22,982 nt of DNA from a virus, in the IMG/VR virus record IMGVR_UViG_3300033182_001210, positions 1 through 22,982 of that record. One strand, 5' to 3'. Positions 4,644-21,879 of this stretch are shown piece by piece. The position numbers and the translations under genes are program-made. Under the pieces are notes generated by a model. That model did not search any database and was not told the origin of the DNA. It saw only the letters and a list, made by a program, of their open reading frames with translations. Position 1 is the first letter of the stretch, and the number at the start of each line of letters is the position of its first letter.

Positions 4644-4644
4644 G

Positions 4645-4673
4645 TTGGAATTTACCGCTCCAGACGGTAGCAT
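4645..4673 (+). promoter_or_regulatory. Promoter-like pair with internal dyad
   Basis: TTGGAA (4645-4650) and TAGCAT (4668-4673) are 17 bp apart. Between and over them lies TACCG (4653-4657) with CGGTA (4665-4669), an inverted repeat that touches the -10 box. It would drive the gene starting at 4713. The dyad might instead form a small hairpin after the HTH gene, but no T-tract follows, so an operator is the better guess. Confidence 0.4.
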
Positions 4674-4712
4674 CCCTGTCACAGCGCAACAAACCAACGA
4701 CCGAAAGGACAC

Positions 4713-5144: not shown

Positions 5145-5170
5145 CAGGCCCGTTCGACCTGCTGTAACTT
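5141..5170 (+). promoter_or_regulatory. Consensus sigma70-type promoter of the whiB-thyX-primase operon
   Basis: A perfect TTGACA (5141-5146) is separated by 18 bp from TAACTT (5165-5170). The -35 box overlaps the stop of the preceding gene. Transcription would start near 5177 and read through whiB, thyX, the 44-aa ORF and the primase-helicase gene, which are separated by at most 9 bp or overlap. Confidence 0.75.
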
Positions 5171-5209
5171 TCCGCGCGCACCCAGACGCGGAAGGAGACA
5201 GCCGGTCCG

Positions 5210-5509: not shown

Positions 5510-5518
5510 GGTTCGACC

Positions 5519-6202: not shown

Positions 6203-6336
6203 TGGGAATTCGCAACAAGGATTACGAAACCACAGCTTTGACGCGAGTCGAGTGGATGCGCGCTCGCGGCTACAGCGAGCAGCAGATCGACGAATACCTG
6301 AAGCGTAAAGAAAAAAAGCAGAAGGCTAACGGGTGA
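6202..6336 (+). CDS. 44-aa basic ORF between thyX and primase
   Basis: A 44-codon frame (MGIRNKDYETTALTRVEWMR, then ARGYSEQQIDEYLKRKEKKQ and KANG) begins in the thyX stop (TGATG) and ends overlapping the GTG start of the primase gene. This exact tiling supports real translation. The protein is short, helical and has a Lys-rich tail. The segment RARGYSEQQIDEYLKR resembles a small helix-hairpin, but no family is recognised. It might be a small partner of either neighbour, or serve mainly to couple their translation. Confidence 0.65.
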   Translation: MGIRNKDYETTALTRVEWMRARGYSEQQIDEYLKRKEKKQKANG

Positions 6337-8096
6337 GCCGGTTTGCCTCTCCCGAAGTAGATCGCTTCCTGTCGCTGCTCGACGGCGTACGCCAAAACGG
6401 GCAGAACTGGTCTGCCAGATGTCCATGCAGGAACGACGACTCAAACCCGTCCCTGTCGATCGGGCAAGGACGAGACGGCCGCGTCCTCGTCACCTGCCAC
6501 CGCGGAACACCATGCTCAGTAGAGCAAATTTGTGACTCGATGGGCCTAGAGCTCGGCGATCTGTATCCGGTCGACGACGACTGGGAACCCGTCGAACGCA
6601 ACGACCCGAAAGTGACCCCACAAGGCGCATCATCAGTTTCCGTAAAGGCCAAAAAACAGAAGCTCGACCTCAAAGACACCTACGACTACACCGACACAGA
6701 CGGCAACCTGCTGTTCCAAAAACTGCGATTTGTGGACGAGAACGGCAAAAAAACATTCCGTCAACGTCGGCCGGTCGGCAACCGCTGGGAATACAACCTC
6801 GACGGCGTCACGCAAGTCTTATACCACCTGCCAGAAGTCGTCGAAGCCGTACGTGAAGGCAAAACCGTTGTCGTCGTGGAAGGCGAAAAAGATGTTGAGA
6901 CGCTGCGCGCCATGGGGCGGGTCGCAACAACCATGCCCGGCGGAGCCGGAAAGTGGCGTCCGGAACACACCGAGGCGCTACGCGGGGGCAACATCGTTGT
7001 TGTCGCAGACAACGATGAGCCCGGCAAAGCGCACGCCATCCAAGTCCGCGACGCCCTGACCGAGGCCGGCTGCTCCGTCCGAATGATGATCCCAGACGGG
7101 GTAAAAGACATCACCGATCTGATCGAAGCCGGTCGAGGACTCAAAGACCTACGCGACTTCGATGGCGAACTTCAGGAACCCGAACTGACAGACCCGATCC
7201 AGCCGGCGCTCAACAAGATCGAAAACCTGCTCGCACGCGACGACATACCTCTGTCGTCGAAGATCACCCGCGCGACGATGATCCTCGACGAACTTCGGCC
7301 ACAGACCACAGCCCGACCAGCCGGCCGTCTTGTCAAATGGTCCGACTTCGTCGACGAAGCTGTCGACGATTCATACGACTGGGTGATACCCGGCCTTCTA
7401 GAACGCGGCGAGCGCGTCATAATCGTGGCCAGTGAGGGCATAGGGAAAACAATGCTTGGCCGTCAGGTAGCGCTCTGCACCGCTTCCGGCATACACCCGT
7501 TCACCTTCGAACGCATGGAGCCCATCCGCACCCTGATGGTCGACTTGGAGAACCCGCAGCGGATCATCCGCAGAACGTCGATCGACATTCAGAAGAAGGC
7601 TCAGATGTTCGGTTTTTGCGACGATCCGCAGGCCCATTTGTTCATCAAACCTGACGGCCTCGACCTTCTGCAGTCCGGGGATCGCGTGCTGTTGGAGAAC
7701 GCGATCGAGCAGACAAAACCCGACCTCCTGCTGCTGGGTCCGGTGTACAAGTCGTTCGTTGATCCGGGCGGACGTACCAGTGAAGCAATTGCTATTGAGG
7801 TCGCTAAATATTTTGACTCATTACGAGAGTGGTTTAATTGCGCCATGTGGTTTGAGCACCACGCACCCTTAGGGTCTACAATGTCTTCAAGGGATTTGCG
7901 ACCTTTCGGCTCCGCTGTGTGGTCAAGGTGGCCCGAGTTCGGGCTCAGCCTCCAACCAGACCCGACGGCAACCACAGGATATGTTTACGACGTAAACCAC
8001 TTCCGCGGCGCTCGAGACAGGCGACGATTCCCTACAAAAATGATGCGCGGGCGAAGATTCCCATTCGAAGTCCTCGAATTCATGGCGGTCGACTAA
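6333..8096 (+). CDS. Bifunctional DNA primase/helicase (Zn finger, TOPRIM, RecA/RepA-like ATPase)
   Basis: This 587-aa protein joins a primase half to an ATPase half. Cys30, Cys32, Cys55 and Cys61 form a primase-type zinc site. The TOPRIM domain has VVVEGEKD (E183, acidic site 1), MPGG at 201-204 and VVADNDEPG (D226 and D228 region) for metal binding. The C-terminal half has a Walker A, ASEGIGKT (366-373), a Walker B-like strand RTLMVDLEN (399-407) and a further strand DLLLLGP. This is the RepA/AAA_25 type of hexameric helicase. It would make primers and unwind the fork. The start is GTG, overlapping the preceding stop (GTGA). The last base of its TAA begins the next ATG (TAATG). The enzyme family is clear; the exact split of activities is inferred. 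Confidence 0.9.
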   Translation: MSRFASPEVDRFLSLLDGVRQNGQNWSARCPCRNDDSNPSLSIGQGRDGRVLVTCHRGTPCSVEQICDSMGLELGDLYPVDDDWEPVERNDPKVTPQGASSVSVKAKKQKLDLKDTYDYTDTDGNLLFQKLRFVDENGKKTFRQRRPVGNRWEYNLDGVTQVLYHLPEVVEAVREGKTVVVVEGEKDVETLRAMGRVATTMPGGAGKWRPEHTEALRGGNIVVVADNDEPGKAHAIQVRDALTEAGCSVRMMIPDGVKDITDLIEAGRGLKDLRDFDGELQEPELTDPIQPALNKIENLLARDDIPLSSKITRATMILDELRPQTTARPAGRLVKWSDFVDEAVDDSYDWVIPGLLERGERVIIVASEGIGKTMLGRQVALCTASGIHPFTFERMEPIRTLMVDLENPQRIIRRTSIDIQKKAQMFGFCDDPQAHLFIKPDGLDLLQSGDRVLLENAIEQTKPDLLLLGPVYKSFVDPGGRTSEAIAIEVAKYFDSLREWFNCAMWFEHHAPLGSTMSSRDLRPFGSAVWSRWPEFGLSLQPDPTATTGYVYDVNHFRGARDRRRFPTKMMRGRRFPFEVLEFMAVD

Positions 8097-8770
8097 TGGC
8101 AAAGCAAAATGGGTTAACACGAGAATTTCTTGCCGAACGAGACGTTCGCGTATTCAAAATGCGGCAAGCAGGCGTCGCCCCCTCCGAAATTGCTCGCAGA
8201 TTCGGCATGAGCACCAACGCTGTAAACAGCGCCATCAAACGCCAACTCGAAAAACTCAATCGAGAAGCCCTGATGGCGTATCCCGAAGTTCTGCGCATGG
8301 AACTCGAACGCCTCGACGCACTTCAACAGGCGATCTGGCCTCTAACACAGCACCGCAAAATCACTACGGATGACGGTCAAGAAGTCGCAGTAGAGCCTGA
8401 TATGAAAGCCATCCAACAGGTTCTTGGGATTATGGATCGGCGATCACGGCTGCTCGGCATGGAGCAAACGAACGTCAACCTCCAAGTCGAACAAGTCGAA
8501 CCCCAGCGCGCCGCGCTCGCCGGAGCCGCAGACAACGCTGCCGCCGCGATCGACGCGTTCGACCCTGAAAAAGAAGCAAAACAGCTGCTCGAGCTCATGG
8601 GCAACGCCGGCGTACTCCCCGCAGAAACAGTGAACTCTTTGCTGTATGATTCACCCAAGGCTGAACTAGAAGAAGCCAAAATAGATCAGGAGCCAGAGCA
8701 GCGTGAGCCAGAGAAGGAAATCCTCTACGGAGAAATTATCCACCCCGGTGGACATAACCCCACCAGCTGA
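8096..8770 (+). CDS. HTH DNA-binding protein, terminase-small-subunit-like
   Basis: The ATG at 8096 overlaps the primase stop; an open frame upstream to 7919 lies inside the primase gene and is rejected. The 224-aa product begins with a helix-turn-helix (FKMRQAGVAPSEIARRFGMS, residues 19-38, then a recognition helix TNAVNSAIKRQL). This is followed by a helical region LERLDALQQAIWPLTQ and then AIQQVLGIMDRRSRLLGMEQ. The Ala-rich and Glu-rich C-terminus looks disordered. The LERLDAL...W...MDRRSRLLG layout is like that of small terminase subunits and related DNA-recognition proteins of actinophages. However, no large terminase gene follows, so a replication or regulatory DNA-binding role is equally possible. 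Confidence 0.7.
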   Translation: MAKQNGLTREFLAERDVRVFKMRQAGVAPSEIARRFGMSTNAVNSAIKRQLEKLNREALMAYPEVLRMELERLDALQQAIWPLTQHRKITTDDGQEVAVEPDMKAIQQVLGIMDRRSRLLGMEQTNVNLQVEQVEPQRAALAGAADNAAAAIDAFDPEKEAKQLLELMGNAGVLPAETVNSLLYDSPKAELEEAKIDQEPEQREPEKEILYGEIIHPGGHNPTS

Positions 8771-9071
8771 GGACAACATTGTCGCAGCGATAGACAAAGT
8801 CGCTGAAACGCTCGAGCCCACAATTCCCGCAAACACAGGTGCGGAAGACGGCGGGACCGCCTCCAAGCAGGTTCTCATTCGGGCAACCGAGCAGGACCAC
8901 GAACGCTGGAAACTTGCCGCCGAGGCCAAAGGCATCAGCATGTCCGAATTCATTCGCAACCTGTGCAACGCTGCTGCGACCGACATTCTGGACTGCTCTC
9001 ACCCTCCGGAAATGCGGAAAGCGTACCCTTGGTCAGAAAAATGCATGGCCTGCGGTCACCGCTTTCGGTGA
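8703..9071 (+). CDS. Ribbon-helix-helix protein with C-terminal zinc ribbon
   Basis: This 122-aa product starts at GTG 8703, within the upstream gene (68-bp overlap), with AGGAG ten bases before it. A later GTG at 8748 is a weaker alternative. The first 50 residues are low-complexity. A ribbon-helix-helix domain follows: the strand KQVLIRATEQDHERW and helices LAAEAKGISMSEFIRNLCNA (residues about 55-90), as in Arc/CopG repressors. The C-terminus has Cys97-His and CMACGH (Cys114, Cys117), a plausible zinc-binding end. The protein should bind DNA as a dimer. It precedes the giant ART gene by 17 bp and could regulate it; this is inference from position. Confidence 0.7.
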   Translation: MSQRRKSSTEKLSTPVDITPPAEDNIVAAIDKVAETLEPTIPANTGAEDGGTASKQVLIRATEQDHERWKLAAEAKGISMSEFIRNLCNAAATDILDCSHPPEMRKAYPWSEKCMACGHRFR

Positions 9072-9088
9072 TGTGAGAAAATATTTGA

Positions 9089-12000
9089 ATGGCCAGACCG
9101 CGCAAAAGGCTTCGAATCGAGCCGTACAAACCCGACGCAGTTGACGCTGACTGGGACGGAATCGTTCAAGAAGGCACCGCGTGGGAACGGCCACGTGGCA
9201 CCCGCATTTTTGACGAAGCGGGAGAAGAAATCAAACGTGGTGCTATTCGTGGCTTTGATGCGGCCGACGCCACCCCGATCCGGTTCATTGACGCTGACGG
9301 CAATGAGGTCGAGTACCGGCAGACGTGGAAAGAGGCGCGGAAGCAGACCCAACGCCGGCCTCTCGGGCGAACGCTTGCGGAACGTGGAGCACCGTCCCTT
9401 GCGAGCCGACAGGAATCGCTCGGTCAACGATTCGGAAATCTTGGGGACAGCGGTGTTCCTGATCTTATTTATGCGCTCGATGTTGAGTTTGACGAGCTGC
9501 CAGATTTCATCGATGTTGATATGGACCGTGGCGACATTATTGACGCACGACGCGAATGGTGGGCTCAGACTCGCCTTGCCCAGCTGGTCACCGACCTGAA
9601 AAGTTCGACGCAGGCCCGACGTGACGCTGCCCGTATCCATAACCCGCACGCCCACTACATGTTGGACTGGGGAAATCGAAAAACTGTTTCAGAGTGGGAA
9701 CAATACCGAAATGCTCTCCGGCAGGCAATTGCTGAGGCTGCTGACGACAAAGAACGTCGAGCACTTCAGGGTGAGCTGAACGCTTCCGAAGATATCGAAA
9801 AACTTGAGAACTGGCTGTCCGGTCAGGACATCACAACGGAAGATATGGAAGCCGTCGCTGACGCCGCAGCACAAACGCAAGCGCGGCGGGCGCAGCCGGA
9901 ACAGGGAACACCGGAAGCGATCCGGCAGCGGAACGCTGAAGTCATTTCTCAAATTGAGGCTGCCGGGGGTTTCTTCAACTTTTCTGCTCTCACACACGAA
10001 GAGCGCAACGCATTTATCGAACAGGAAAAACCGAAGACTGTCTCTTCGCTGATTAGGGCCAACCCGGAAAGTGCGCGCAACAGTATTCGCAAAAGATGGA
10101 CGTCTTTAATTGACGAGAAAAAAGAGACAGTCGCGTATTACGAGGGGCTGGTTGATAAGGCGACAAACCCAGAAGATAAGGAACGGTTTCGTCAGAGAGC
10201 AGCCCTCGCAAGGCGGGTGGTCGAATATTTAGAAACTCACGATTCCGACGAGGTTATTGACGAAATCGCTAAGTTAACCAGAAGCTTGGTTGAAGACGAA
10301 GATACTCGTGTGGCAGTTCAAATGCCAGTCGGGAAATTGTCCGACTTTCTATCTCAAGGCTACAAAACCACACACGAAGCACATAGCGACCATAGTGCGT
10401 CAGATATTCGAACCGCGTATGAAGTAACTCAAGGAATCCCGGTCGACGCCCCAGCGTCAATTCGGCCAGCGTCCGGATATCTGCAAAACGGTGCGCGCCG
10501 CCGAGCCGCACGTCAGGTCGCAATCGAAGAAGGTACCGTCAACCCAGATGCCGCCACCGGCGTCGCACAGCACAACGCCGGAAATGCTGGACTGTACGGC
10601 GGAATCCAGATGATCATGAAGCCGGAAGTCGGTGGGCGAACACGATTCGGCATGGGTGACTCATTCAACGCCAGCATCCGATCCGCCCCACTGAATGGAG
10701 CGACAGATGACCAGCTTATCGACGCAGTGCTCGCCACGGACGGGGGCAAAGGCGCAACGATGGATGCGGAAAAAAAACGATTTATGGATCTGGTGGAAGT
10801 TCTCGCCACCGGCGGAAACTCGGAACTTTTTGGCGCCAACCCGGTTAACGACCGCGTGGTCGAAAAATTTGGACTGCCCTCACAGCAGGGGTCAACTGAC
10901 TACTGGGAAACTCTGATCTTCGGCTCTTTCAACATAACTGATATAGAAGAAATCTTCATCCCGGAAGCCGACATACCGAGAACCGTCAAGCCGAAGGCAA
11001 ACTTCGGAAAAGATGCACGAGACTGGCTCGCCCAGTCCCTAAGAGATAATCCTGAACTGTTTCAGTACCTCTCGGCAGGTCAGATTCAAGAACTTAGACG
11101 ACTTGTTGAGCTGCACCCAGAAGAAGCCGCGCGTTTGTCGGAGAAACTCTCTAACGTTCTTAACTTCATTGACGAGCTGCGAGACCAGCAAAACTTTGTG
11201 CAGCGTATCGCTGACGTCTCCCCAGACACCAAGGTTACGATCACTACACCAAAAGGTGAGTCGCATCTCCGACCCGCCATGTTCAATCTGCCGGAAGATG
11301 GGGACGTGATGGGGTTCCTTGAGGGGAGAATTGAGTTCCATGTAAACTCAATCTTCGAACAGCTGCGCGAGCTGCCGACCGGCCCAGCAACAGATATCGA
11401 TCGGCAAGGGTTTGACCTCGGTGTCGCCGATGACATTGACGCCATGTCAGCCGACTGGACTGAAATCGAAACCAAAGCGTCGCGTGCTCGGCTACGCCTC
11501 CAGCCGTACGACCCGGACGCCAAAGACGCCGATGGTGACGGCATTGTTCAGGAAGGCACTGCATGGGAACGTCCTGCGGGATGGAAAATTCTTGACGAGT
11601 TCGGCGAAGAAATCGCAGCCGGACGAATTCTTGGCCGTGTCCCCGACAACGTTACATACGTAAATGAAAAAGGTGAGAAAGACACCTACACGCCGAAGCC
11701 GCCGGAGCAGGACACGCCCGACGGGAGAACATCAAGCCCGGCAATCTCCGGCCTCCCCACCCTCGGTGAGATGGCCCGCGGTCAGCATCCGGACAACGAA
11801 GAACGACAAAAGCCGAAGCCTCCCCCCGCACCAAAAAGCAAAGTTCCGAAAAAGCCCGAGGACGAAGCCGAAGAGCGTACTCCCGGCGAAATCCTGTTCG
11901 GCACCCCTGAAGAACCGATCGAATGGGAAGAACTTGCAGACATTTTTGAGGAAGAAGGTTTCCAGCCGATCCGAAATCAATGGCAACAAGACATGTCGTT

Positions 12001-14413
12001 CGAAGAATTTTTGGAGGAGCTGTTCAGCCCAGACGGCGCTTTCCACACCTACTGGATCAACTGGAACGAGTGTCGTGAAATTCGACAGTGGGGCTACAGG
12101 CTGTCTGGAACAACCCCGGGAAGTTCGGACCCGAACCTGACGCGCACCGACGGATATTTCGGGGTTGGTCTCGGATACATCGTCACCCCAGAAGAAATGC
12201 GAAATCTCGCTATCGGCGTTATGGCGCTCATCGCCAAACGGCGACGTGAACGTGCCGAAGGTGATCGACGAGAAGTGCCGAAACTGTACCGGGCGGTCGA
12301 TGTTGACGACCTCGACGAGTTTCTGGAAGCGTTCCAAGAAGGCGAATTTGTTGACATCCCGTTGCTTGCTACCGCGCAAAGCAGCGAGGGTGAAGGCCAT
12401 GTCGCAAACTTGACGCGCTACGGAACCGAAGTGCTCATGGAGATCCAAGACGCGGACGGGCACTCCAACGGCGAAATGTTCATTGTGTACAGCTGGGAAG
12501 ACGAACTTGACTCCCTCGACAAAGCGTACGACATCATCAATCAAAATCTGGAAGATATTCGCGAAATTCTTTCGGACGGTGATCTTGATCCGGACGACAT
12601 TCGTTCATACGAAAACCAGCAACGCGACTTGACGGAGTTTCTTGGTCGGCTCCGAGTGACCCGAGCCAGACTTCGTGGCGGCATCGACGGTTTAGATGAC
12701 GATGACCGCGATTTTCTGGTTCGTGTACGCGAAGAGATTGCCAGCGGGCACTACCTCGATTTTCGGGAAATGACCGGCCATCCGTATCGCGTCACGGGAG
12801 AGGCGATGTTGGCCGACTCAAAGCTCAAGCCGGACCACCCTGACTTTTTCCCGGACGGCGACTACTACGAGACGTTGATGGACTCGCTACCCGAGGACGA
12901 CCCGCGAAGGCAAATTGAGGTCGTTACCGGTGGCCGCTTCGAAGTTGTGTCGGTTGACGAAGAAACCGATCCGCTGACCCCATATAGCCATCGGATCGTG
13001 CTCAAACAAGTCGGAGTGTTTGACCCCGTGAACCCGGGTCGAATTGTTGGCGAGATTGAAGACGTTGAAGAGTTTGATGATCGCCCACCGACAACGCTGG
13101 CAGAGCAGGCCGGCGACTATTCGAGTCTTCCTTTAGACCCGGACACGCCTGTCCCCGCCGCATTGTTCGACGACTGGACAGAGAGCGGCGTGAACGCGCT
13201 GGCCCAGACAAGCGATCAAACGCGGATGCGTCACCTCGTAACCGCATTTTGGGAAGGCGACTTCTCGTGGGTGCTCGAATGGCTCCACTCCGGATACGCC
13301 AGCGTCGCAGCTGAAGAAGGTTTTGCCGACTTGGGGGACGAGGGTCTTGACGATGTCACCTTGGCCGACATTCGCGCGTATGTTCAAGGTGAAATAGAGC
13401 AAGCCCGTGAATCAATTCAAACTCACGATGGCACCCGTGACGGCAAATACATTTTTGTGTGGCGTGGCGGTCGAGTCGGCGACAAAATGCTGGTATCCGT
13501 CGCAGCAGACGACGGCCGCGACCGAGGTGCCGAAAAGATCGCAGCAAAATACGGCGACGCATACCGTTACAGAATTCCCGTCGACGCCGTCTACTACGAA
13601 GAACGAGACGGCGAATCCGGAGAATTCCTTGTCGACGCGTCACGTCTCGAACTGATCGACAAAGATGGAACACCTGTCGGCCCGCTCGGCGACCGTGAAG
13701 ACACCCCGTTCAGTAACTTTATGCGCAACCTTTTCGAAGAAAACATTCCGGGCTGGATCAGAACCGACGAAGACAAAGTTCAAGAAGCGTACCGAGCGTT
13801 CGAAAACCAAGATCCAGATGACGAAGACGGAATGTCAGAAGAAGATCTGTATGAGCAGCTTCGACAGTTCGAGTTGGAAGCACGACAAGAGTTGTATGCC
13901 CGTCTTGCCGAGGTCGCCGGCTGGCCCGCTGCGGACGCCCTCGAAAAATGGATCACAGGGTACATGGGCACCACCGAGTCCATACGTGAAGACGTTGTTC
14001 GCGGCGAACCACGCGCCCGTCCGCTCCTCGAGTTGATCGACGCCTCAGACGAAGTTGATTTCCCGCTATACCGCGGCATGCGGCTATCTAAAGAACAGCT
14101 GGAAGAAATGTTGGAGCGCGGCCGCATCAACTTCCCAATCGGCGCGACCAGCACGTCATCATCCTCAGCCGCGGAATATGGCCCGGTCATGTTCCGAATC
14201 GAAGGTGCGCAGGCATTCCCCGCCCACTACTTCTCACCAATCGACGAAAACGAATGGCTCATATCCGGCGAGTTCGAAATCGTGGAAGTTGGATCTTTTG
14301 TTGACAGAATGGGCAACGACACCGGCAAAACACTGATCGTGGTCCGCCCAACCGGCAGAAACTACCTCGACAACCAAGAGCAGCTCGCAGCCGAAGGACT
14401 AGAAGCAGAATGA
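9089..14413 (+). CDS. Giant multidomain ADP-ribosyltransferase protein (1774 aa)
   Basis: The C-terminal domain is an R-S-E ADP-ribosyltransferase: YRGM with Arg1662, GATSTSSS with Ser1688-Thr-Ser1690, and Glu1720-Asn-Glu1722 as the ExE catalytic motif. Such enzymes transfer ADP-ribose from NAD to protein targets. Two further regions look like diverged ART folds: one at about 1063-1290 (LYRAV Arg1068, ATAQSS, Gln1275-Ile-Glu1277) and one at about 1455-1515 (VWRGG Arg1459, GESGEFLV). A fourth region, about 430-620 (RPASGY Arg459, then YGGIQMIMKPEVGGRTRFG and WETLIFG), resembles a domain of actinophage virion proteins. A DxDxDG-EGTAWERP module occurs twice, near residues 8-55 and 802-850. A Pro/Lys/Glu-rich linker follows at about 865-920. 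The Shine-Dalgarno is weak. The likely role is a virion-carried or early effector acting on host proteins; the targets are unknown. Confidence 0.8.
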   Translation: MARPRKRLRIEPYKPDAVDADWDGIVQEGTAWERPRGTRIFDEAGEEIKRGAIRGFDAADATPIRFIDADGNEVEYRQTWKEARKQTQRRPLGRTLAERGAPSLASRQESLGQRFGNLGDSGVPDLIYALDVEFDELPDFIDVDMDRGDIIDARREWWAQTRLAQLVTDLKSSTQARRDAARIHNPHAHYMLDWGNRKTVSEWEQYRNALRQAIAEAADDKERRALQGELNASEDIEKLENWLSGQDITTEDMEAVADAAAQTQARRAQPEQGTPEAIRQRNAEVISQIEAAGGFFNFSALTHEERNAFIEQEKPKTVSSLIRANPESARNSIRKRWTSLIDEKKETVAYYEGLVDKATNPEDKERFRQRAALARRVVEYLETHDSDEVIDEIAKLTRSLVEDEDTRVAVQMPVGKLSDFLSQGYKTTHEAHSDHSASDIRTAYEVTQGIPVDAPASIRPASGYLQNGARRRAARQVAIEEGTVNPDAATGVAQHNAGNAGLYGGIQMIMKPEVGGRTRFGMGDSFNASIRSAPLNGATDDQLIDAVLATDGGKGATMDAEKKRFMDLVEVLATGGNSELFGANPVNDRVVEKFGLPSQQGSTDYWETLIFGSFNITDIEEIFIPEADIPRTVKPKANFGKDARDWLAQSLRDNPELFQYLSAGQIQELRRLVELHPEEAARLSEKLSNVLNFIDELRDQQNFVQRIADVSPDTKVTITTPKGESHLRPAMFNLPEDGDVMGFLEGRIEFHVNSIFEQLRELPTGPATDIDRQGFDLGVADDIDAMSADWTEIETKASRARLRLQPYDPDAKDADGDGIVQEGTAWERPAGWKILDEFGEEIAAGRILGRVPDNVTYVNEKGEKDTYTPKPPEQDTPDGRTSSPAISGLPTLGEMARGQHPDNEERQKPKPPPAPKSKVPKKPEDEAEERTPGEILFGTPEEPIEWEELADIFEEEGFQPIRNQWQQDMSFEEFLEELFSPDGAFHTYWINWNECREIRQWGYRLSGTTPGSSDPNLTRTDGYFGVGLGYIVTPEEMRNLAIGVMALIAKRRRERAEGDRREVPKLYRAVDVDDLDEFLEAFQEGEFVDIPLLATAQSSEGEGHVANLTRYGTEVLMEIQDADGHSNGEMFIVYSWEDELDSLDKAYDIINQNLEDIREILSDGDLDPDDIRSYENQQRDLTEFLGRLRVTRARLRGGIDGLDDDDRDFLVRVREEIASGHYLDFREMTGHPYRVTGEAMLADSKLKPDHPDFFPDGDYYETLMDSLPEDDPRRQIEVVTGGRFEVVSVDEETDPLTPYSHRIVLKQVGVFDPVNPGRIVGEIEDVEEFDDRPPTTLAEQAGDYSSLPLDPDTPVPAALFDDWTESGVNALAQTSDQTRMRHLVTAFWEGDFSWVLEWLHSGYASVAAEEGFADLGDEGLDDVTLADIRAYVQGEIEQARESIQTHDGTRDGKYIFVWRGGRVGDKMLVSVAADDGRDRGAEKIAAKYGDAYRYRIPVDAVYYEERDGESGEFLVDASRLELIDKDGTPVGPLGDREDTPFSNFMRNLFEENIPGWIRTDEDKVQEAYRAFENQDPDDEDGMSEEDLYEQLRQFELEARQELYARLAEVAGWPAADALEKWITGYMGTTESIREDVVRGEPRARPLLELIDASDEVDFPLYRGMRLSKEQLEEMLERGRINFPIGATSTSSSSAAEYGPVMFRIEGAQAFPAHYFSPIDENEWLISGEFEIVEVGSFVDRMGNDTGKTLIVVRPTGRNYLDNQEQLAAEGLEAE

Positions 14414-14715
14414 AACCAAAACTCCTATCCACCGCAGCAAACGGCGACCAGTTGTGGGTCAACCGCAAACACCCGAACGGCAAAATGTCCGGCTTCATTC
14501 TACAAATCAACAAAATCAAACGACCCGTTGACGACGTCGGCATGGCCCTTCAGTCAGACCGCTGGCCGTCAGGCGAAAACATCGACAAATACCTGCAGCG
14601 CCGCGAACCAAAAAAACCGAAGCTCATCAACTACCCTGACTTCGACCGACCGATGAACAGAATGCGGAAACCAGACAATGACGACACTCCACGTCCAAGA
14701 CAACGCCCTACCTGA
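14410..14715 (+). CDS. Small basic protein coupled to the giant ART gene
   Basis: This 101-aa product starts in the ATGA overlap with the giant ART gene. It opens with MKPKLLSTAANGDQLWVNRK, contains a segment that could form a small beta domain (GKMSGFILQINKIKRPVDDVG), and ends in a Pro/Arg-rich tail (PDFDRPMNRMRKPDNDD). No family is recognised and there is no signal peptide. Strict coupling to a toxin-like ART suggests a partner such as a chaperone or an immunity factor, but position alone does not show this. It overlaps the following oxygenase gene by 38 bases. Confidence 0.65.
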   Translation: MKPKLLSTAANGDQLWVNRKHPNGKMSGFILQINKIKRPVDDVGMALQSDRWPSGENIDKYLQRREPKKPKLINYPDFDRPMNRMRKPDNDDTPRPRQRPT

Positions 14716-15361
14716 ACCACTGCTACGCAGAGTCGCCAAAGACCCAAACTTTTTCCCAGCCGACATGTCGCTTCACGACAACATCGGCGAATACCTCAAC
14801 AGCTACCACGATCAAGAATGCGACTGCTTCGCCCCCTACATGTTTTGGGACGGATGGCTCAACTCGCCCGCTGACACGCTCCGCAAACAGGTCATCCAAG
14901 TCTTATGGTCGCAGCCCGGACTGCTGCCGTTCCCTATCGAAGAAGTTGCCGGGTTCGAATACTGGACCCGCACCTTCGGAGTCGGCCAATACCTCGGCGT
15001 TCACTGCGACGAAGACACGTTTCAGTACGCCAAGGACAGGTACTACCGTGGGCCCGCGATCGGCTGCGTCTGGTACGGCACCAGCGAATCGACCGGCGGG
15101 TTCCTCGAACTGCACGCCACCACCATCCTCGAAGGGAAAGATTCCCTTGAACGAGAGCAACTCGATGCGCTAATGTCGGCACCCGAGGAACGTGAACGGA
15201 TCATGTACCGGCCTAATCGGCTGGTCGTGTTCGATGCCGGTCACCGGCTTCACGAGACAACGAAAACTCTTACCGGCAAGCGTCAGGTGATGGTGGTCAA
15301 CGTGTGGCACCGCGACAATCCGCCGAGCGCAATCGAAACAGGCGAATTTTTTTACGAATGA
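14678..15361 (+). CDS. 2-oxoglutarate/Fe(II)-dependent oxygenase
   Basis: The 227-aa product has the prolyl-4-hydroxylase-like iron site. His109-x-Asp111 lies in LGVHCDEDT after a YWTRTFGVGQYL strand, and the distal His (His192, or His189) lies in FDAGHRLHETTKTL. Arg202 in KRQVMVVNVW is positioned to bind 2-oxoglutarate. The core strand GPAIGCVWYG and turn STGGFLELHAT match the usual GGxL segment. Such enzymes hydroxylate protein side chains, nucleobases or small molecules with O2 and 2-oxoglutarate; the substrate cannot be read from sequence. A start at ATG 14678, with CGGAAA eight bases upstream, overlaps the preceding gene. Its own stop overlaps the next start (ATGA). Confidence 0.85.
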   Translation: MTTLHVQDNALPEPLLRRVAKDPNFFPADMSLHDNIGEYLNSYHDQECDCFAPYMFWDGWLNSPADTLRKQVIQVLWSQPGLLPFPIEEVAGFEYWTRTFGVGQYLGVHCDEDTFQYAKDRYYRGPAIGCVWYGTSESTGGFLELHATTILEGKDSLEREQLDALMSAPEERERIMYRPNRLVVFDAGHRLHETTKTLTGKRQVMVVNVWHRDNPPSAIETGEFFYE

Positions 15362-15909
15362 CTTTTGTCTCCGGACCAATAACTGAACTTCACAGAGATC
15401 GAGCGCAGAGACGAGCCGCTGAGTATCCGGTCCTAAAAGGCTCCCACCGTGGCAAAACCGCCAATGAGATCGGTGCGCTCGGTGAAGTTATCGCGGAAAG
15501 CTGGCTGGCGAGGAACGGGGTCAGGTTCACCTCTGTTCGCACCACAAGAACCGACCTGATCCTGTCAAACGGAAAAACGCTCGAGATCAAAACGAAAGAC
15601 CGCACCGTCGCACCAAAACCAGAGTACGAAGCGAGTATTCCGCTGTACAACCACGATCACCAGCAGCCTGACTACTACCTGTTCGTTTCCCTAGAACGCA
15701 AACGTGGCCCATCTTCAACGCTTGAAGATTTTCACACCGCGCACATTGTCGGGGCATCCTCCGTCCGCAAAATGCATCAACACGGGAAAGTGTGGAAAGC
15801 CGACGAAACCGACCCGGACAACGGCACCACCTTCTGGACCGACTGCCTGAACATAAAAATAGAAAATTTGGTGGAGCCCGCTACCGCGTTGGTACACTGG
15901 GCGCCATGA
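15358..15909 (+). CDS. PD-(D/E)XK-type nuclease-like protein
   Basis: The ATG at 15358 lies in an ATGA overlap with the oxygenase gene; a longer frame from 15304 sits inside that gene and is rejected. The 183-aa product shows a restriction-endonuclease-like core. The first helix is ALGEVIAESWLARNG (Glu43), then comes TRTDLILSNGKTLEIKTKDR, in which Asp66 and Glu76-Ile-Lys78 form the D...ExK site. Later strands are DYYLFVSL and THAHIVG-like segments. The core organisation is that of small nucleases such as phage recombination or Holliday-junction-type enzymes and restriction-like enzymes. It is likely to cut DNA, possibly in recombination or host DNA breakdown. No DNA-specificity domain is visible. 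It is in the same overlapping operon as the oxygenase and the sigma-like gene. Confidence 0.7.
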   Translation: MTFVSGPITELHRDRAQRRAAEYPVLKGSHRGKTANEIGALGEVIAESWLARNGVRFTSVRTTRTDLILSNGKTLEIKTKDRTVAPKPEYEASIPLYNHDHQQPDYYLFVSLERKRGPSSTLEDFHTAHIVGASSVRKMHQHGKVWKADETDPDNGTTFWTDCLNIKIENLVEPATALVHWAP

Positions 15910-16358
15910 ATGCTGAACTAATACTACAAATTCAAAATAAGCTCGAAGGTTACGTGTACAACCATGGCGGTGACCGTTACGACGACGCTGCACAAACCAT
16001 CAGCATTTGCCTACAGCGCGGGTACCACGAACTGCCGGAACTCGAGTTCAAAAGGGTCGCATTTCGCATACTGAAAAACCTCCGAGTCAACCGTTATCGT
16101 CAACTCGACTTACAGGATCGATACTTCCCGGTGATCGCCAGACCAGAACAGACAGAAGACCTCCACCGAGAAATGTTTTTCGAGGACATGATTTCACAAC
16201 TCGACCCGACCGAGCAGAAAATTTTGACGATGAACATGGTTGACGGCTGGAACATGAACGACGTAGCCAAACAGATGGGGATCACCCCCAGCTTGGCACG
16301 CAAACGCAAAATGGTCGCTATCAAAAAGTTGCGCACCACACTTGCCCCGACTTCATAA
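15906..16358 (+). CDS. Sigma-70-like (ECF-type) factor
   Basis: The ATG at 15906 overlaps the nuclease stop (ATGA); an upstream extension to 15792 lies inside that gene. The 150-aa product resembles a small sigma factor. A region-2-like helix pair is DDAAQTISICLQRG and RVAFRILKNLRVNRYRQ (residues 24-74). A linker with EDLHREMFFEDM follows. The C-terminus is a region-4 HTH, SQLDPTEQKILTMNMVDGWN then MNDVAKQMGITPSLARKRKM. The region-2 part is short for an ECF factor (usually about 180 aa in total), so it may not recognise a -10 box on its own. It could direct late phage transcription or bind core RNA polymerase as a modifier. A weak promoter-like pair (TTGGTG 15868, TACACT 15893, 19-bp spacing) lies just upstream. 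Confidence 0.75.
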   Translation: MNAELILQIQNKLEGYVYNHGGDRYDDAAQTISICLQRGYHELPELEFKRVAFRILKNLRVNRYRQLDLQDRYFPVIARPEQTEDLHREMFFEDMISQLDPTEQKILTMNMVDGWNMNDVAKQMGITPSLARKRKMVAIKKLRTTLAPTS

Positions 16359-16380
16359 ACACTTGCGATAGTTTGACCAC

Positions 16381-17394
16381 GTGCGTCGAGAAAAACCAGA
16401 GTACGACTTCACACGTCACCGGCCAACAATCGGCAACACGTTTCTTCCGTGGCCAGAACGAACAGGGGCAGGGCGAGAGTTCAACCGTGGCCTCATGAGA
16501 GACGAAAACTCCGGCTTTTTTTATAGTTACGGTCCAGAATGGCACCACAACATTGTCGGTGACAGCAACGACGGTTTTTTGGAAAACTGCTATTACCGGG
16601 TCAACTCGGACGGCATGCATTGGGATGAATATGTATCCGAACCAGATCTTCTGGCTTTGGGATGCTCCATTACTGCTGGTGTCGGCATCCCCTACGAGTA
16701 CACGTGGCCGAACATTTACCGTCACGTCACCGGGGAGTCTGTAAATGCTGTGGCGCGGCCGGGGGCCTCACTTCGCACAATGGTGAAGTCCGCTTTACAT
16801 CACATCAAACATTACGGGCTTCCCAAAAAAATCTTTATTTTGATTATGGACGCTATGCGCTACACGTTTTTAGAACCCGCGAGCTTGAAGCACACGCACT
16901 ACCCAAGGACTCGAGTTCTTTTATATGACCGCGAATCAGAAGGATACTCCGAGGGAGGAGGTGCCAACGCGTTTGTTTATGACGATGGACGCGGTCTTCC
17001 GATCGTTCCTTCCGCTCATTTTCTGGCAGAAGAAAATTTGACAGCGCTCGAGCACCTTGGATATGTATGCGACATTATGAATATCGATTTGCGCCTCAGT
17101 TTTGACGGTAGAGAATTCACGGCACAGTTCCAATCAATGGGATGGGACGTCGTACCGAGACACACCCCCGAAAACGAGTTTCTTCCCCAAGGCAAAGATC
17201 ATGAACTGTTTTGGGATTACGGGTGGGACACAACCCCAAACGCTGCCTATGCCGCTCACCCCGGACTCCAAGCACACCTCGAGCTAACATCTAGTTTTCT
17301 CGGACGGCAACTCGGGCCAGACGAATGGAAAGACGTCACACCGTGGGCGCGACATAAATTTCGTCACGACATTCCACACCCGCAAAAACAATGA
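16381..17394 (+). CDS. SGNH-hydrolase-like protein, copy 1 of 3
   Basis: This 337-aa product starts at GTG 16381; the start is supported by alignment with the third copy (YDxT...R near the N-terminus). The nucleophile block is PDLLALGCSITAGVGIPYEY, where GCS replaces the classical GDS, followed by TWPNIYRHVTGESVNAVARP and PKKIFILIMD. SGNH hydrolases are esterases or deacetylases that act on glycans, lipids or cell-wall polymers. The C-terminal block reads NAAYAAHPGLQAH: His-Pro-Gly is kept but the Asp usually two or three residues before the His is missing (Ala and Tyr there). It may therefore have low activity or a different acid. There is no signal peptide. It is the first of three tandem paralogues and overlaps the next start (ATGA). 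Confidence 0.75.
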   Translation: MRREKPEYDFTRHRPTIGNTFLPWPERTGAGREFNRGLMRDENSGFFYSYGPEWHHNIVGDSNDGFLENCYYRVNSDGMHWDEYVSEPDLLALGCSITAGVGIPYEYTWPNIYRHVTGESVNAVARPGASLRTMVKSALHHIKHYGLPKKIFILIMDAMRYTFLEPASLKHTHYPRTRVLLYDRESEGYSEGGGANAFVYDDGRGLPIVPSAHFLAEENLTALEHLGYVCDIMNIDLRLSFDGREFTAQFQSMGWDVVPRHTPENEFLPQGKDHELFWDYGWDTTPNAAYAAHPGLQAHLELTSSFLGRQLGPDEWKDVTPWARHKFRHDIPHPQKQ

Positions 17395-18398
17395 ACGTCG
17401 ATCCCCTCACAGAGCTCTGGAGAATCCGAGAAAAAGACCCGTCCCGACTCTGCCAGACAGGATGGCCAGTTTCCGAAGCGCTCAAGCACAACCCTGCCGA
17501 ATACGACGAAGAACTCGGAATTCGCTGGTCTGACGGGACCGGCTATTTTTACACAAAACCAATGGAAAGGGTGGCTCACCAGTTCAACTCTCTAGGCTTC
17601 CACGGGCCAGAGTTTGTCGATCAGCCCGACATAGTGACCCTCGGATGCTCTATGACAAACGGCATCGGGCTTCCTCACAACTTCACGTGGCCACACATCA
17701 TCAGCCACATCACCGGCCAGACGGTGAATAACATTTCTGAGCACGGACAGGGGTGCGTCAACCAGTTTCTGTCCCTCCTTGGACACAACGCAGCACACGG
17801 CAAACCGAAAAAAATCTTCTGGCTTGTCACACCATTGGACCGTTTTTATTTCGCGTTGCCCGCGGCGGGCACCACCACTTTCCAGTACAGCGCCGACGCA
17901 CACGCATACATCGATCACGCAAAGCCAATCACATTTAAATCTATCGACGGAACTCCAGCGTTCATACCAATCAACGTTGGCATCCATCAAAACCTCATAG
18001 CAATCGACCAAACCATCTTTTACTGCGAAGGCGAAAAAATAGATCTCCGTTTAAACTCGTGGTCGCGACCGACTCTCAACGCTCTCGTTAAGGACTACCA
18101 CCACATAGGAATCGTCGGCCACAAATTTGGATGGGTTCAAGATGGTTCAAGAGAAGCAAAAGCTGAACAGCAATATTGCGGATGCGGACTGAAGCCACAA
18201 AACTCGTATCAGTCCGATTTCTGGAACGCCGCGAAAGACACAGACGACGGACGCGACTCCACCACCGAACATCCCGGACTACACTCACAACTACACTTCG
18301 CAGAACTGTTCCTCGAACGCGAAATCACCACCAGCGAGATAGCAGACATCACCCCGTTTTGGGCAGGAACCGAAATTGAAAACAAAATCAATGCGTGA
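17391..18398 (+). CDS. SGNH-hydrolase-like protein, copy 2 of 3 (most diverged)
   Basis: The 335-aa product starts in the ATGA of copy 1. The nucleophile block is DIVTLGCSMTNGIGLPHNFT, followed by WPHIISHITGQTVNNISEHG and PKKIFWLVTPLDRFYF. The C-terminal block is DSTTEHPGLHSQ, again HPG without Asp at the usual place (Thr at -2 and -3, an Asp only at -5). It shares the N-terminal WS.GTGY and NSLG-type strand with its neighbours but is less like them than copies 1 and 3 are to each other. The GCGCGL-like segment (QQYCGCGLKPQ) near residue 265 is particular to this copy. It is likely a subunit or a substrate-specific relative, acting on the host surface or as part of a virion structure. Neither role is shown by the sequence. 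Confidence 0.72.
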   Translation: MNVDPLTELWRIREKDPSRLCQTGWPVSEALKHNPAEYDEELGIRWSDGTGYFYTKPMERVAHQFNSLGFHGPEFVDQPDIVTLGCSMTNGIGLPHNFTWPHIISHITGQTVNNISEHGQGCVNQFLSLLGHNAAHGKPKKIFWLVTPLDRFYFALPAAGTTTFQYSADAHAYIDHAKPITFKSIDGTPAFIPINVGIHQNLIAIDQTIFYCEGEKIDLRLNSWSRPTLNALVKDYHHIGIVGHKFGWVQDGSREAKAEQQYCGCGLKPQNSYQSDFWNAAKDTDDGRDSTTEHPGLHSQLHFAELFLEREITTSEIADITPFWAGTEIENKINA

Positions 18399-19425
18399 CG
18401 AAAATTATTTTAATCCCGGCTACGACCTAACCGTACTCAGGCTGAACCCCGCAGAACAGTTTTACAGCTGGCCAGAATCACCCAAACACTGGAAACAGTT
18501 AGATTGCCTTCTTGAAACTGACGAAACAACGGGCATCACCTACAGCCGTGGAGTGGAATGGCACCAGAACATCAGCCCACACAAAAACGGTGCTCTGCCA
18601 AACTGCTACTACCGGGTGAACTCTGATAATGCCCACTGGTACGAATACGAACACAACCCTGACGTTGTAGCACTCGGATGCTCGCTCACAGCAGGCATGG
18701 GCATACCAATCGAATACACGTGGCCGTCCATCTACCGTCAGATCACCGGCGAAACAGTAAACAACATTGGCCGTCCCGGCAACCCGCTCGCCCGCTCGGC
18801 CTACTCGCTGTTTCGCCACGTAAAGAACTACGGCCCACCGAAAAAAATTTTTGTTTTACTAGGTGACCCTTACCGTTACTGGCATCAGGGTCCGCTGCCG
18901 CGTCCGCTGCCGCACGAGGGTCCGGGCTTACTGCTGAACGATCGTATCGTTCAGTTCAACCATGATACGCTGACATATGTCGGGCATGGTGGGAAACCTT
19001 GGAACTTTCGGGATTCTTTGGGTCGTGAAACGATGTTGTCACCCGATATTTGTGTTGGTGAAAATTTGCGTGCGTTCGAACACGTACTGTATTTCGCTGA
19101 AGCGTTCGATATTGACGTGAAATTGCAGGTCATCCAGCCGATAGTCGAGTCGCATTTTGAACAAATCGGATATCCAGTTGTGCGCTCCACCGCAAACCAA
19201 GAACCAGTTCCTGAAACGAAAGATCAGGAGCTGTTCTGGCGGTACGGTTTCGACTTTGTGGACGGCGTCCACCACGACGCCCATCCCGGGTTAGTGGAAC
19301 ACCTGAAATGGGTATCAGGATTCCTCGGGCGTCCAGTCACCCAAAACGAACTGAAAACGATCACCTGTTGGGCAAGCCACCTTTTCGACCATGACGCGCC
19401 GAAATGGTCAGGGAAAGAACGCTAA
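18391..19425 (+). CDS. SGNH-hydrolase-like protein, copy 3 of 3 (canonical triad)
   Basis: The ATG at 18391 overlaps copy 2 by eight bases and gives 344 aa; a TTG at 18376 is an alternative. The nucleophile block is DVVALGCSLTAGMGIPIEYT and the glycine block is TVNNIGRPGN. The oxyanion-region strand is PKKIFVLLGDPYRYW. The C-terminal block is VHHDAHPGLVEH, which keeps the Asp two residues before the His, so this copy has the complete SGNH catalytic set. It is closest to copy 1 (shared CYYRVNSD, GENLxAFEH/EENLxALEH, and a KDxELFWxYG run). Codons in about 18880-19180 use more G/T in third position than the flanks, and a 12-bp tandem repeat lies at 18890-18913, suggesting a replaced segment. A hydrolase of acyl or acetyl esters is likely, substrate unknown. 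Confidence 0.78.
   Translation: MRDENYFNPGYDLTVLRLNPAEQFYSWPESPKHWKQLDCLLETDETTGITYSRGVEWHQNISPHKNGALPNCYYRVNSDNAHWYEYEHNPDVVALGCSLTAGMGIPIEYTWPSIYRQITGETVNNIGRPGNPLARSAYSLFRHVKNYGPPKKIFVLLGDPYRYWHQGPLPRPLPHEGPGLLLNDRIVQFNHDTLTYVGHGGKPWNFRDSLGRETMLSPDICVGENLRAFEHVLYFAEAFDIDVKLQVIQPIVESHFEQIGYPVVRSTANQEPVPETKDQELFWRYGFDFVDGVHHDAHPGLVEHLKWVSGFLGRPVTQNELKTITCWASHLFDHDAPKWSGKER
18890..18913. repeat. 12-bp tandem direct repeat in the third SGNH gene
   Basis: gtccgctgccgc occurs twice back to back (18890-18901 and 18902-18913) and encodes a Pro/Leu-rich GPLPRPLPHEG loop absent from the other two copies. It lies at the start of the locally GT-biased stretch. Confidence 0.7.
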
Positions 19426-19434
19426 GATCCGGCC

Positions 19435-19668
19435 ATGACCTTCGACGAATGGCTCCAAATCGGTATCGACAACAAATGGTGCGGCCCCGCGGTCTGCTCC
19501 ACCCACGACGGCATCCCCATGTCCCCCGACGAAGACGACGAATGGGCTGACGGCCTCGACCCCTGCCACCATGTCATCCGTCTCTACGAAAACGAAAACA
19601 TCGCCGACACGATCAACCACTCCTTCACCCCCTACAAGTGGCGGACGTCATGGAAACTGCCGACATGA
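19435..19668 (+). CDS. Small acidic protein with CGPAVCSTHDG motif
   Basis: This 77-aa product begins MTFDEWLQIGIDNKWCGPAV, then CSTHDGIPMSPDEDDEW and DPCHHVIRLY. Three Cys and several His could bind metal, but the order does not match a named zinc finger. Short proteins with the opening MTFDEWL..GI..GWCG...C.THDG are, to my recollection, widespread in actinophages with no assigned function. The start ATG is nine bases after the SGNH copy 3 stop, with no strong Shine-Dalgarno. The stop overlaps the following gene start (ATGA at 19665). Confidence 0.75.
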   Translation: MTFDEWLQIGIDNKWCGPAVCSTHDGIPMSPDEDDEWADGLDPCHHVIRLYENENIADTINHSFTPYKWRTSWKLPT

Positions 19669-20165
19669 TGCGCGTCAACATCGGCCCCGACATTTGGGCC
19701 ATCCAAACCCTCACCGAAGCCCGATGCGACCAGATTGGACGCGGCATCACCCACGACCCCAACTGGAAACGCAAAAATCGGCATCCGCTCGACCACGGTG
19801 CGGGCGTCAACGTCCGCGACCTCACCGACACGTCGCTCGGCAACATCATCAACGACCACGCCCGACAACTCTCCGAACTCGTCGAAGAGCTCTACAACAC
19901 CAACATTCGAGTCAGATCCACCTACATACAAAAATGGGACCACAAAGGTGACGAAACCGTCGACATCCCCGGCGGAGGCAAAGGATGGATCACCGTCACC
20001 TGCCTCGAAAACACCATCGCACCATCCGGCGGCCTCCGATTCCCCGACCTCGGCATCACCTACGAAGGAATCAAAGGACGCACCCTGTTCTACCCCAACA
20101 CCTACCCGCGCAGCGTCACACCCGTATACCGCAGCCTCACCACAATCCGCACCAGACACCACTAA
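19665..20165 (+). CDS. Degenerate 2OG-oxygenase-fold protein lacking iron ligands
   Basis: The ATG at 19665 (GGAAA eight bases upstream, overlapping the previous stop) gives 166 aa; GTG 19638 and ATG 19650 are alternatives. The C-terminal part, PSGGLRFPDLGITYEGIKGR then TLFYPNTYPRSVTPVYRSL, lines up with the GGELVFPELG...HGVEPV...SR core of the convergent oxygenase at 20204-20794. At the iron positions the HSD of the neighbour is KWD here, the distal His is Arg, and the 2OG-binding Arg is Leu. By known chemistry this copy should not bind Fe(II) or 2OG in the usual way. It may be a structural partner or decoy, or have a different activity. It converges on the intact oxygenase, and the 18-bp repeat at 20164 overlaps its stop. 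Confidence 0.7.
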   Translation: MMRVNIGPDIWAIQTLTEARCDQIGRGITHDPNWKRKNRHPLDHGAGVNVRDLTDTSLGNIINDHARQLSELVEELYNTNIRVRSTYIQKWDHKGDETVDIPGGGKGWITVTCLENTIAPSGGLRFPDLGITYEGIKGRTLFYPNTYPRSVTPVYRSLTTIRTRHH

Positions 20166-20181
20166 CAGATAAATCTAAACA
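20164..20181. repeat. 18-bp direct repeat, left copy
   Basis: aacagataaatctaaaca occurs here and again, identically, at 20819-20836. This copy covers the stop codon of the degenerate oxygenase gene and lies 23 bp beyond the stop of the leftward oxygenase. Its centre AGAT-AA-ATCT is an inverted repeat. Confidence 0.8.
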
Positions 20182-20203
20182 AACCGAGAAACCCGACACA
20201 AAA

Positions 20204-20794
20204 CTACAACAACCCCCAAACCGGCGACGCATCACAACAATCCACGTCCCACCCCGACGGCAACAACGAAACCGCACGAGCCAACACCCGCGCCCTCGAC
20301 ACAAAAAACACCGCCGACAAACGCGACCCCACCACAGGCTCAACCCCATGCAACACCGCCGAAGGAAACACCACACCCCACCCAGCCCGCGGCACCACCG
20401 GCCCAACACCCAACTCAGGAAACACCAACTCCCCACCACCACCCGACTCCAAAAACAACACCACCGTAAAATCCGCCCAACAATGCCACGGCGCACCCGA
20501 CACCGTCAACACACCACCCTCATCAAACACATCCGAATGCGGCACCGCCCACTCACCAACCCGCCACTCACGCACCGAACCCCGCCACACCACCACAGGC
20601 TCCCCACACACCCCCACACACACATCACGAACCAACCCCCACACACCACCCAAAAAATCCCCCACACCCACACCAACACGCTCCACAACCCACTCAGGAT
20701 CACCAACCCCCAACGGATCCAACAACACCGACCCCGACCGCACACCAGCAGCCACACCAACCGGATCCACCGACCACAAAAACTCCGAAACCAC
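20204..20794 (-). CDS. 2-oxoglutarate/Fe(II)-dependent oxygenase (prolyl-hydroxylase-like)
   Basis: This 196-aa product, read leftward, starts at GTG 20794; an in-frame TAG lies four codons upstream, so no longer start exists. Its core has all ligands. HSD supplies His and Asp (residues about 86-88), then come FTVVLFLESGGGGELVFPEL and VVFPSAVLHGVEPV with the distal His. SRLSAVFFV follows with the 2OG-binding Arg. This is a typical P4H-like dioxygenase. The gene is the only leftward one in the right half of the window and is very rich in G and T in the coding strand. It sits between two copies of an 18-bp direct repeat, suggesting independent acquisition. Its degenerate relative ends 38 bp away on the opposite strand. 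The substrate is unknown. Confidence 0.78.
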   Translation of the reverse strand: MVSEFLWSVDPVGVAAGVRSGSVLLDPLGVGDPEWVVERVGVGVGDFLGGVWGLVRDVCVGVCGEPVVVWRGSVREWRVGEWAVPHSDVFDEGGVLTVSGAPWHCWADFTVVLFLESGGGGELVFPELGVGPVVPRAGWGVVFPSAVLHGVEPVVGSRLSAVFFVSRARVLARAVSLLPSGWDVDCCDASPVWGLL

Positions 20795-20818: not shown

Positions 20819-20836
20819 AACAGATAAATCTAAACA
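20819..20836. repeat. 18-bp direct repeat, right copy
   Basis: This is identical to the copy at 20164-20181 and in the same orientation. It lies 25-42 bp upstream of the GTG of the leftward oxygenase, a position where it could also be part of its promoter or an operator. Confidence 0.8.
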
Positions 20837-20921
20837 CCACACCGCGACCCAAAAAAACCAAAACACCACCCCCCAGCGGGGCGGCGTCGCGATTGTCAGC
20901 TTCGGGGCTTCTGATGCCGTT

Positions 20922-20941
20922 TGCGCGAGCATGCGCGAGCA
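20922..20941. repeat. 10-bp tandem repeat in divergent intergenic region
   Basis: TGCGCGAGCA is repeated head to tail (20922-20931, 20932-20941). It lies in the 224-bp region between the leftward oxygenase and the rightward metallophosphoesterase, just before a promoter-like pair and close to the place where strand composition reverses. It could be a regulator or initiator binding site. Confidence 0.55.
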
Positions 20942-20957
20942 GCGTTTCGGGGTGGGG

Positions 20958-20986
20958 TTGTGGTTTTGTTCGGGTGGCCGTATGCT
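20958..20986 (+). promoter_or_regulatory. Promoter-like pair for the metallophosphoesterase gene
   Basis: TTGTGG (20958-20963) and TATGCT (20981-20986) are 17 bp apart, 33 bp before the chosen ATG at 21019. This spacing supports the short start rather than the ORF opening at 20893. Confidence 0.5.
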
Positions 20987-21018
20987 GGCCGGATGTTTGT
21001 ACCTATGTTGGATCGGGG

Positions 21019-21879
21019 ATGTCGATGAGGGTTGTTGTCGCAGGTGATGTGCATGGGAATGATGCTCATCTTCGCATGTTGCTTGACGTTTGTGTCGTTG
21101 AGGGTGCTCCTTTCCTTGTTGTGTGTGGTGACTTTGGGTTTTGGCCTCATGTTGATTGGGGTCGTGACTTCATTGAGGTCGCACAGTTGGAGGCTCATTC
21201 TCGTGATGTGTGTGTGATCTGGATCGATGGGAATCATGACAATCATGATGTGTTGGAGTCGATGCTTCAGCCGTACAGAGAGATGGAGTGTGGTCCGGGG
21301 TTCAACGGATTGGTTCCGGTTGGGGACGTTGGCTCGTTGATGTGGTGTCCTCGTGGATGGACGTTCGAGTTGGATGAGTTGACGTGCATGGGATTTGGAG
21401 GGGGCATCAGTGTTGATAGGGAGCATCGTCGTGAGGGTGAGTCGTGGTGGTCGGGTGAGGCGATCACGCGCGAGCAGGTTGACGGTGTGCGGGCGGTCAT
21501 CGCGCCTGCGGGCGTGCCGTATACGCGGGCGGGCTTCATTGATGTGGTGTTCTCGCATGAGGCGCCGTTGGCGAACGGAATGTTTGCGCCTGTGAAGGGC
21601 GGGGTCGATGATTTGTCGTACAAGGATGTGATCGCTGAGTCGTTGGATCAGCGTCGTTTGATCTCGGAGTTGGTTGATGTGGTGAAGCCTGAGCGTGTGT
21701 TCTGTGGGCATCATCATGTGCGACGTACGTTCACTCGGAGGTATGAGGGGGGCGCGGAGTTGGTGTTTCCTGAGTGCCGAGTTGATGTGTTGGGTCATGA
21801 CCATTCGGGTGCGGACTCGTACACGATCCTTGAGTGCGGCGGAGAGGGGAGCGCTGTCCCTGCTCTCGTAGGGGTTTGA
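21019..21879 (+). CDS. Calcineurin-like metallophosphoesterase
   Basis: This 286-aa product has the complete two-metal signature: GDVHG (Asp10, His12), GDFGFW (Asp38), DGNHDNH (Asn72, His73), SHEAP (His180) and GHHH (230-233). Such enzymes hydrolyse phosphodiesters or phosphomonoesters with Mn or Fe. Phage members may act on RNA or DNA ends, on nucleotides, or on phosphoproteins. The frame is open from 20893, but ATG 21019 (MSMRVVVAGDVHG) has the family N-terminus and a GGATCGGGG ribosome-site-like run, and the promoter boxes lie just before it. The coding strand is notably G/T-rich, unlike the A/C-rich rightward genes at 14.4-20.1 kb, which suggests a different history or replication strand. 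Confidence 0.88.
   Translation: MSMRVVVAGDVHGNDAHLRMLLDVCVVEGAPFLVVCGDFGFWPHVDWGRDFIEVAQLEAHSRDVCVIWIDGNHDNHDVLESMLQPYREMECGPGFNGLVPVGDVGSLMWCPRGWTFELDELTCMGFGGGISVDREHRREGESWWSGEAITREQVDGVRAVIAPAGVPYTRAGFIDVVFSHEAPLANGMFAPVKGGVDDLSYKDVIAESLDQRRLISELVDVVKPERVFCGHHHVRRTFTRRYEGGAELVFPECRVDVLGHDHSGADSYTILECGGEGSAVPALVGV

Follow-up and report, generated by a model that had tools for sequence, protein, structure and literature searches.

Do two oxygenase-like genes that face each other in a phage genome, one with intact and one with degenerate catalytic positions, encode the two halves of a functional pair, or are they neighbours by accident? The question is raised by a linear viral record of 22,982 bases from an uncultured phage, all of which was analysed here (the window). 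Its rightward protein R (19665..20165, + strand) is a 166-aa degenerate 2OG-oxygenase homologue, and its leftward protein Lf (20204..20794, − strand) is a 196-aa putatively active 2OG-Fe(II) oxygenase with a GTG start. A first-pass annotation had reported both reading frames face to face, and we found them as it described, on opposite strands, convergent and ~39 bp apart. It had interpreted them as a catalytic enzyme and a pseudoenzyme of one fold that either form a heterodimer or represent a new copy taking the place of an old one.

A search of 2.9 million viral contigs with both proteins as queries recovered relatives in three, L003, L004, and L005. L003 encodes both proteins (R 78% and Lf 82% identical to those of the window), L004 encodes an R that is 56% identical, and L005 encodes an Lf that is 61% identical over the alignment. 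The sample therefore comprises three R and three Lf sequences, and all contigs are incomplete fragments. No relatives of either protein were found in scans of bacterial genome contigs, and R found none below E=1 in tblastn against phages and no match in PDB searches. No tRNA genes were found.

R is a distant homologue of 2OG oxygenases by profile comparison

Direct comparison of R with Lf by BLASTP gave a weak match (E=0.047 for one comparison), Pfam gave no match for R, and no library family matched it significantly. When the R alignment was compared with the Lf alignment in hhalign, the score was 38 (P=2e-5; 36.0 in a local rerun), whereas the best of 600 column shuffles reached 24.5 and reversed profiles ~12. 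The GGxxFPxLG...FP...V.PV stretch that the annotation had seen in both proteins is thus common to them beyond chance. We also built an HMM from five intact oxygenases: the three Lf proteins, cyanophage S-SCSM1_251, and L003:6576-7292. The R proteins of L004, L003, and the window scored 24.3, 18.2, and 10.0 bits, respectively, against 8.5, 9.9, and 7.1 for the best of 1000 shuffles of each, the window R scoring lowest of the three. When the Lf sequences were omitted from the HMM, R of L004 and L003 still stood out but the window R did not, with 24/1000 shuffles scoring as well. Since these scores exceed those of the shuffles, the homology is real for the R family, with the window copy the most eroded. 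R is closer to the Lf family than to the other local oxygenases tested; no alignment was obtained with two other local oxygenase families. The AlphaFold model of R, made from a three-sequence alignment, had very low confidence (pLDDT 37), and Foldseek with this model gave no meaningful match. The putative fold of R is therefore deduced from about 50-70 aligned columns. Altogether, the sequence comparisons indicate that R and the 2-oxoglutarate/Fe(II) oxygenases are distantly homologous.

R has lost its catalytic positions

In these oxygenases the HxD motif and a distal His are the Fe ligands, and an Arg binds 2-oxoglutarate. The first pass had noted KWD, R, and L at the first His, distal His, and Arg positions of R; we found Lys at the first, Arg149 at the second, and no conservation of the 2OG Arg. 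Codons K90-W91-D92 (19932..19940, +) occupy the HxD position in the R alignment and the HMM alignment, a placement that is ambiguous in one profile alignment. At the first His position, the window and L003 have Lys (K90-W-D92) and only L004 has His (H90-W91-D92), while Asp92 is invariant across the three R proteins. The five-oxygenase HMM aligns H90-W91-D92 of L004 (K90-W91-D92 in the window) with HxD and R149 with the distal His. The pairwise profile alignment to S-SCSM1_251 instead drops HxD into a gap of R; under either alignment, R is without the distal His and the 2OG Arg. Arg149 (20109..20111, +), which replaces the distal His, is invariant in all three R proteins, and the segment around this position reads FPNWYERSVLPV in R of L004 as opposed to FPGWVEHAVLDV in S-SCSM1_251. 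The segment of the 2OG-binding Arg/Lys is shortened, and the window R has an Arg156 near this position that is Met or Ser in its relatives. Hence, none of the three hallmarks of an Fe(II)/2OG oxygenase (HxD, distal His, and 2OG Arg/Lys) was found in the window R, and R is predicted to be unable to run the Fe(II)/2OG reaction. This prediction has to be read with caution, as AspH variants are active with a single protein Fe ligand (PMC8252765), so that missing ligands in R are no proof of inactivity.

Lf retains the residues of an active oxygenase

The annotation's assignment of a complete catalytic centre to Lf, from HSD, LHGVEPV, and SR, held up. The HxD motif His86-Ser-Asp88 (20531..20539, −), the distal His149 (20348..20350, −), and the 2OG-binding Arg158 (20321..20323, −) are all present, and H86, D88, H149, and R158 are invariant in three contigs (the window, L003, and L005) at 61-82% identity. 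The best family match of Lf is PHROG 61 (2OG-Fe(II) oxygenase, E=5e-8); its Pfam match to PF13759 (E=0.2) is below the cut-off. Lf also aligns with the PKHD-type hydroxylase PiuC (PDB 9ghl, 9qn1; E=0.004) across the core, distal His and Arg included, but this match is partial and weak and does not imply a substrate. The AlphaFold model of Lf, from a three-sequence alignment, was again of very low confidence (pLDDT 30). From its conserved residues, Lf is presumably an active oxygenase.

Compared to known phage oxygenases (PHROG 61/PHROG 2297, PF13640/PF13759), Lf has the same HxD...H...R core, to which R also aligns. Lf differs from them in falling below the Pfam cut-offs and in its extreme Val/Gly-rich, 14-letter composition, and R in lacking the distal His and Arg. 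The cyanophage S-SCSM1 carries 24 2OG-Fe(II) oxygenases (PMC9602691). The third oxygenase that the first pass had placed at 14678 (14678..15361, +) is indeed a separate, intact 2OG oxygenase, with H109/D111/H192/R202 invariant in three contigs and a PF13640 match (E=1.7e-4) below the cut-off. Elsewhere in the window, a small protein with a sigma-70 region 4 (15906-16358; PF08281 E=1.3e-7) is a candidate phage sigma factor, and three tandem paralogues of 335-349 aa (16381-19425), with homologues in L003, L004, and L005, carry a GCSxTxG motif and look SGNH/GDSL-like by eye. A 1774-aa protein (9089-14413) contains a PDAxDADxDGIVQEGTAWERP-like motif twice, and its C-terminal stretch is ADP-ribosyltransferase-like by eye.

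R and Lf are not kept together in related phages

Conservation of the pair in related phages, which the annotation's reading called for, was not observed. In L003, R and Lf are 4.06 kb apart with several genes in between: downstream of R come a membrane-peptide ORF, an intact PF13640 oxygenase, a DUF932 gene, and further genes, and last a TauD-like gene and Lf, on the opposite strand. With a PF13759-like oxygenase upstream of R, L003:5085-11153 holds five 2OG-oxygenase-type genes in 6 kb (PF13759-like, R, PF13640, TauD-like, and Lf). In L005, Lf has the TauD-like gene directly downstream; at the place matching R of L004 there is a membrane-peptide ORF only and no R, and an R profile search of the L005 contig gave nothing but a cross-match to Lf. 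Since this contig is a fragment, another part of the L005 phage genome could carry R. The L004 contig stops 0.8 kb past R and is therefore uninformative on the pairing. The membrane-peptide ORF encodes 22-24 aa and is conserved (L003:6502-6570, L004:6501-6570, L005 about 4738-4811, minus strand); it lies downstream of R in L003 and L004, is kept in L005 without R, and was not seen after R in the window.

The gene order of L003 and L005 thus identifies the TauD-like gene, which is absent from the window, as the steady neighbour of Lf, and rightward genes as the steady neighbours of R. Among the latter, the gene directly upstream of R (19435..19668, +) encodes a 77-aa protein, its frame overlaps the R start, and it is conserved upstream of R in L003, with a homologue in Mycobacterium phage Aminay (E=5e-10). 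R and Lf lie close together in the window, where the ~4 kb that separate them in L003 are missing. Thus, gene order suggests that R and Lf are only incidental neighbours. The view of a catalytic enzyme and a pseudoenzyme of one fold therefore stands in part: conserved residues and profile homology point to an intact and a degenerate superfamily member, but not to a conserved pair. Replacement of an old copy by a new one fared no better, as the two proteins have distinct architectures, are only ~33% identical across 49 columns, and coexist in at least two lineages.

R evolves rapidly in the window lineage

Between contigs, R has a dN/dS of 0.16-0.29; that of Lf is unusable, its third positions being almost exclusively G or T. 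In a relative-rate test with L004 as outgroup, 25 amino-acid changes fell on the window branch of R and 4 on the L003 branch (p=1e-4), meaning that R evolves about six times faster in the window lineage. The nucleotide changes on the window branch comprised 29 GT-to-AC versus 13 AC-to-GT, and between the window and L003, third positions of R change more than second positions. Together, the dN/dS and relative-rate results show R as constrained in its relatives and as relaxed or pushed by mutation bias in the window, where it may be decaying.

Lf adjoins a strand-composition switch

Between Lf and a metallophosphatase gene the strand composition switches (20840..20960). Plus-strand skews are −0.51 (GC) and +0.63 (AT) at 20001-20500 and +0.42 and −0.34, respectively, at 21001-21500, and in L003 and L005 the skew flips at the same gene junction. 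The plus-strand A/C share of third positions is 0.56-0.77 in the upstream rightward genes (3151-19668), 0.87 in R, and 0.995 in Lf, and then 0.22 in the metallophosphatase gene. Folding of the switch region was no better than that of shuffles. A candidate bidirectional origin of replication near 20,880 would fit the skew pattern, as would strong divergent transcription from there.

Lf, which adjoins this switch, is one-sided in composition: 195/196 of its codons end in G or T, and after the start it uses 21 codons for 14 amino acids, without I, K, M, N, Q, and Y. Its relatives in L003 and L005 use 16 and 17 amino acids, respectively. This composition probably explains the poor Pfam match of Lf and may have hindered its structure prediction.

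An exact 17-base direct repeat, ACAGATAAATCTAAACA, has one copy on each side of Lf. Copy 1 (20164..20181) lies at the convergent R/Lf junction and has related copies in L003 and L004; copy 2 (20819..20836) lies upstream of Lf, with an L003 counterpart at about 11180. Variants of the element adjoin rightward genes in L003 and L004. We considered the repeats as marks of a mobile cassette around Lf and set this aside, because L003 and L004 have similar elements next to other genes. Possibly, the element is a candidate phage promoter element, although the copy at the R/Lf junction does not fit this easily.

Discussion

We favour, at a probability of about 60%, the reading that R, within the phage's rightward accessory gene run, is catalytically dead and an old member of the 2OG-oxygenase (double-stranded beta-helix) superfamily, that Lf is an independent oxygenase, and that their close arrangement is incidental. 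Lf would be a leftward and presumably active enzyme whose usual neighbour is the TauD-like oxygenase, and its face-to-face position with R would be a by-product of gene content. Where R is constrained, in L003 and L004, it could serve as a binding or scaffold protein, by analogy with the C-terminal DSBH domain of OGFOD1/Tpa1, which is non-catalytic. Its fast evolution toward A/C-rich codons in the window lineage may be costing R this role. OGFOD1/Tpa1 combines one catalytic and one non-catalytic DSBH domain, and the latter has been proposed to bind partners (PMC4396695). The likeness lies in a catalytic and a non-catalytic unit of one superfamily, known here from sequence. The difference is that the units of OGFOD1/Tpa1 are fused in one polypeptide, while R and Lf come from two genes whose association is not kept, R being absent beside Lf in L005 and 4 kb away in L003.

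A heterodimer, in which a dead R holds or guides the catalytic Lf, would account for the presence of both proteins in the window and L003 and for the resemblance of R to the Lf family above the other local oxygenases tested. We nevertheless judge it improbable, as R is missing from the syntenic place in L005, which has Lf, the two genes lie on opposite strands either about 39 bp or 4 kb apart, and the conserved neighbour of Lf is the TauD-like gene. That R is simply decaying in the window lineage, with no function left there, is an unlikely reading with more to recommend it: the 25 versus 4 amino-acid changes are biased toward A/C, and R adjoins the composition switch with 87% of its third positions A or C. 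Yet R has kept its 166-codon frame, the overlap of its start with the upstream gene, and the core motifs GIKGRT and IRTRH, and it still shows more change at third than at second positions. We regard as very improbable that R keeps an unusual metal- or 2OG-dependent activity through its retained Asp and other ligands. The invariant Asp92, the HWD of L004, and the ability of some 2OG oxygenase variants to function with fewer ligands (PMC8252765) would be in line with it; however, no R member has kept the distal His or the 2OG Arg, and the first His varies. The incidental arrangement of a dead R and an independent Lf thus remains our preferred reading.

For the measured composition of Lf, we tentatively propose that strand-specific mutation from the adjacent pole of replication or divergent transcription confines a working enzyme to an alphabet of 14 amino acids and 21 codons, and that genes arriving near this pole, such as R, are dragged along and erode; this model is possible, but we would not put it at even odds.

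Dead 2OG-oxygenase relatives that stand alone have, to our knowledge, been little described in phages. The three R proteins display steps of loss, with the distal His and Arg gone in all and the first His left in one. Lf, in turn, conserves its catalytic residues under a composition pressure that excludes six amino acids, and would allow one to test how far mutation bias can shrink the alphabet of an enzyme, while the adjacent switch would allow one to test where this phage group starts replication.
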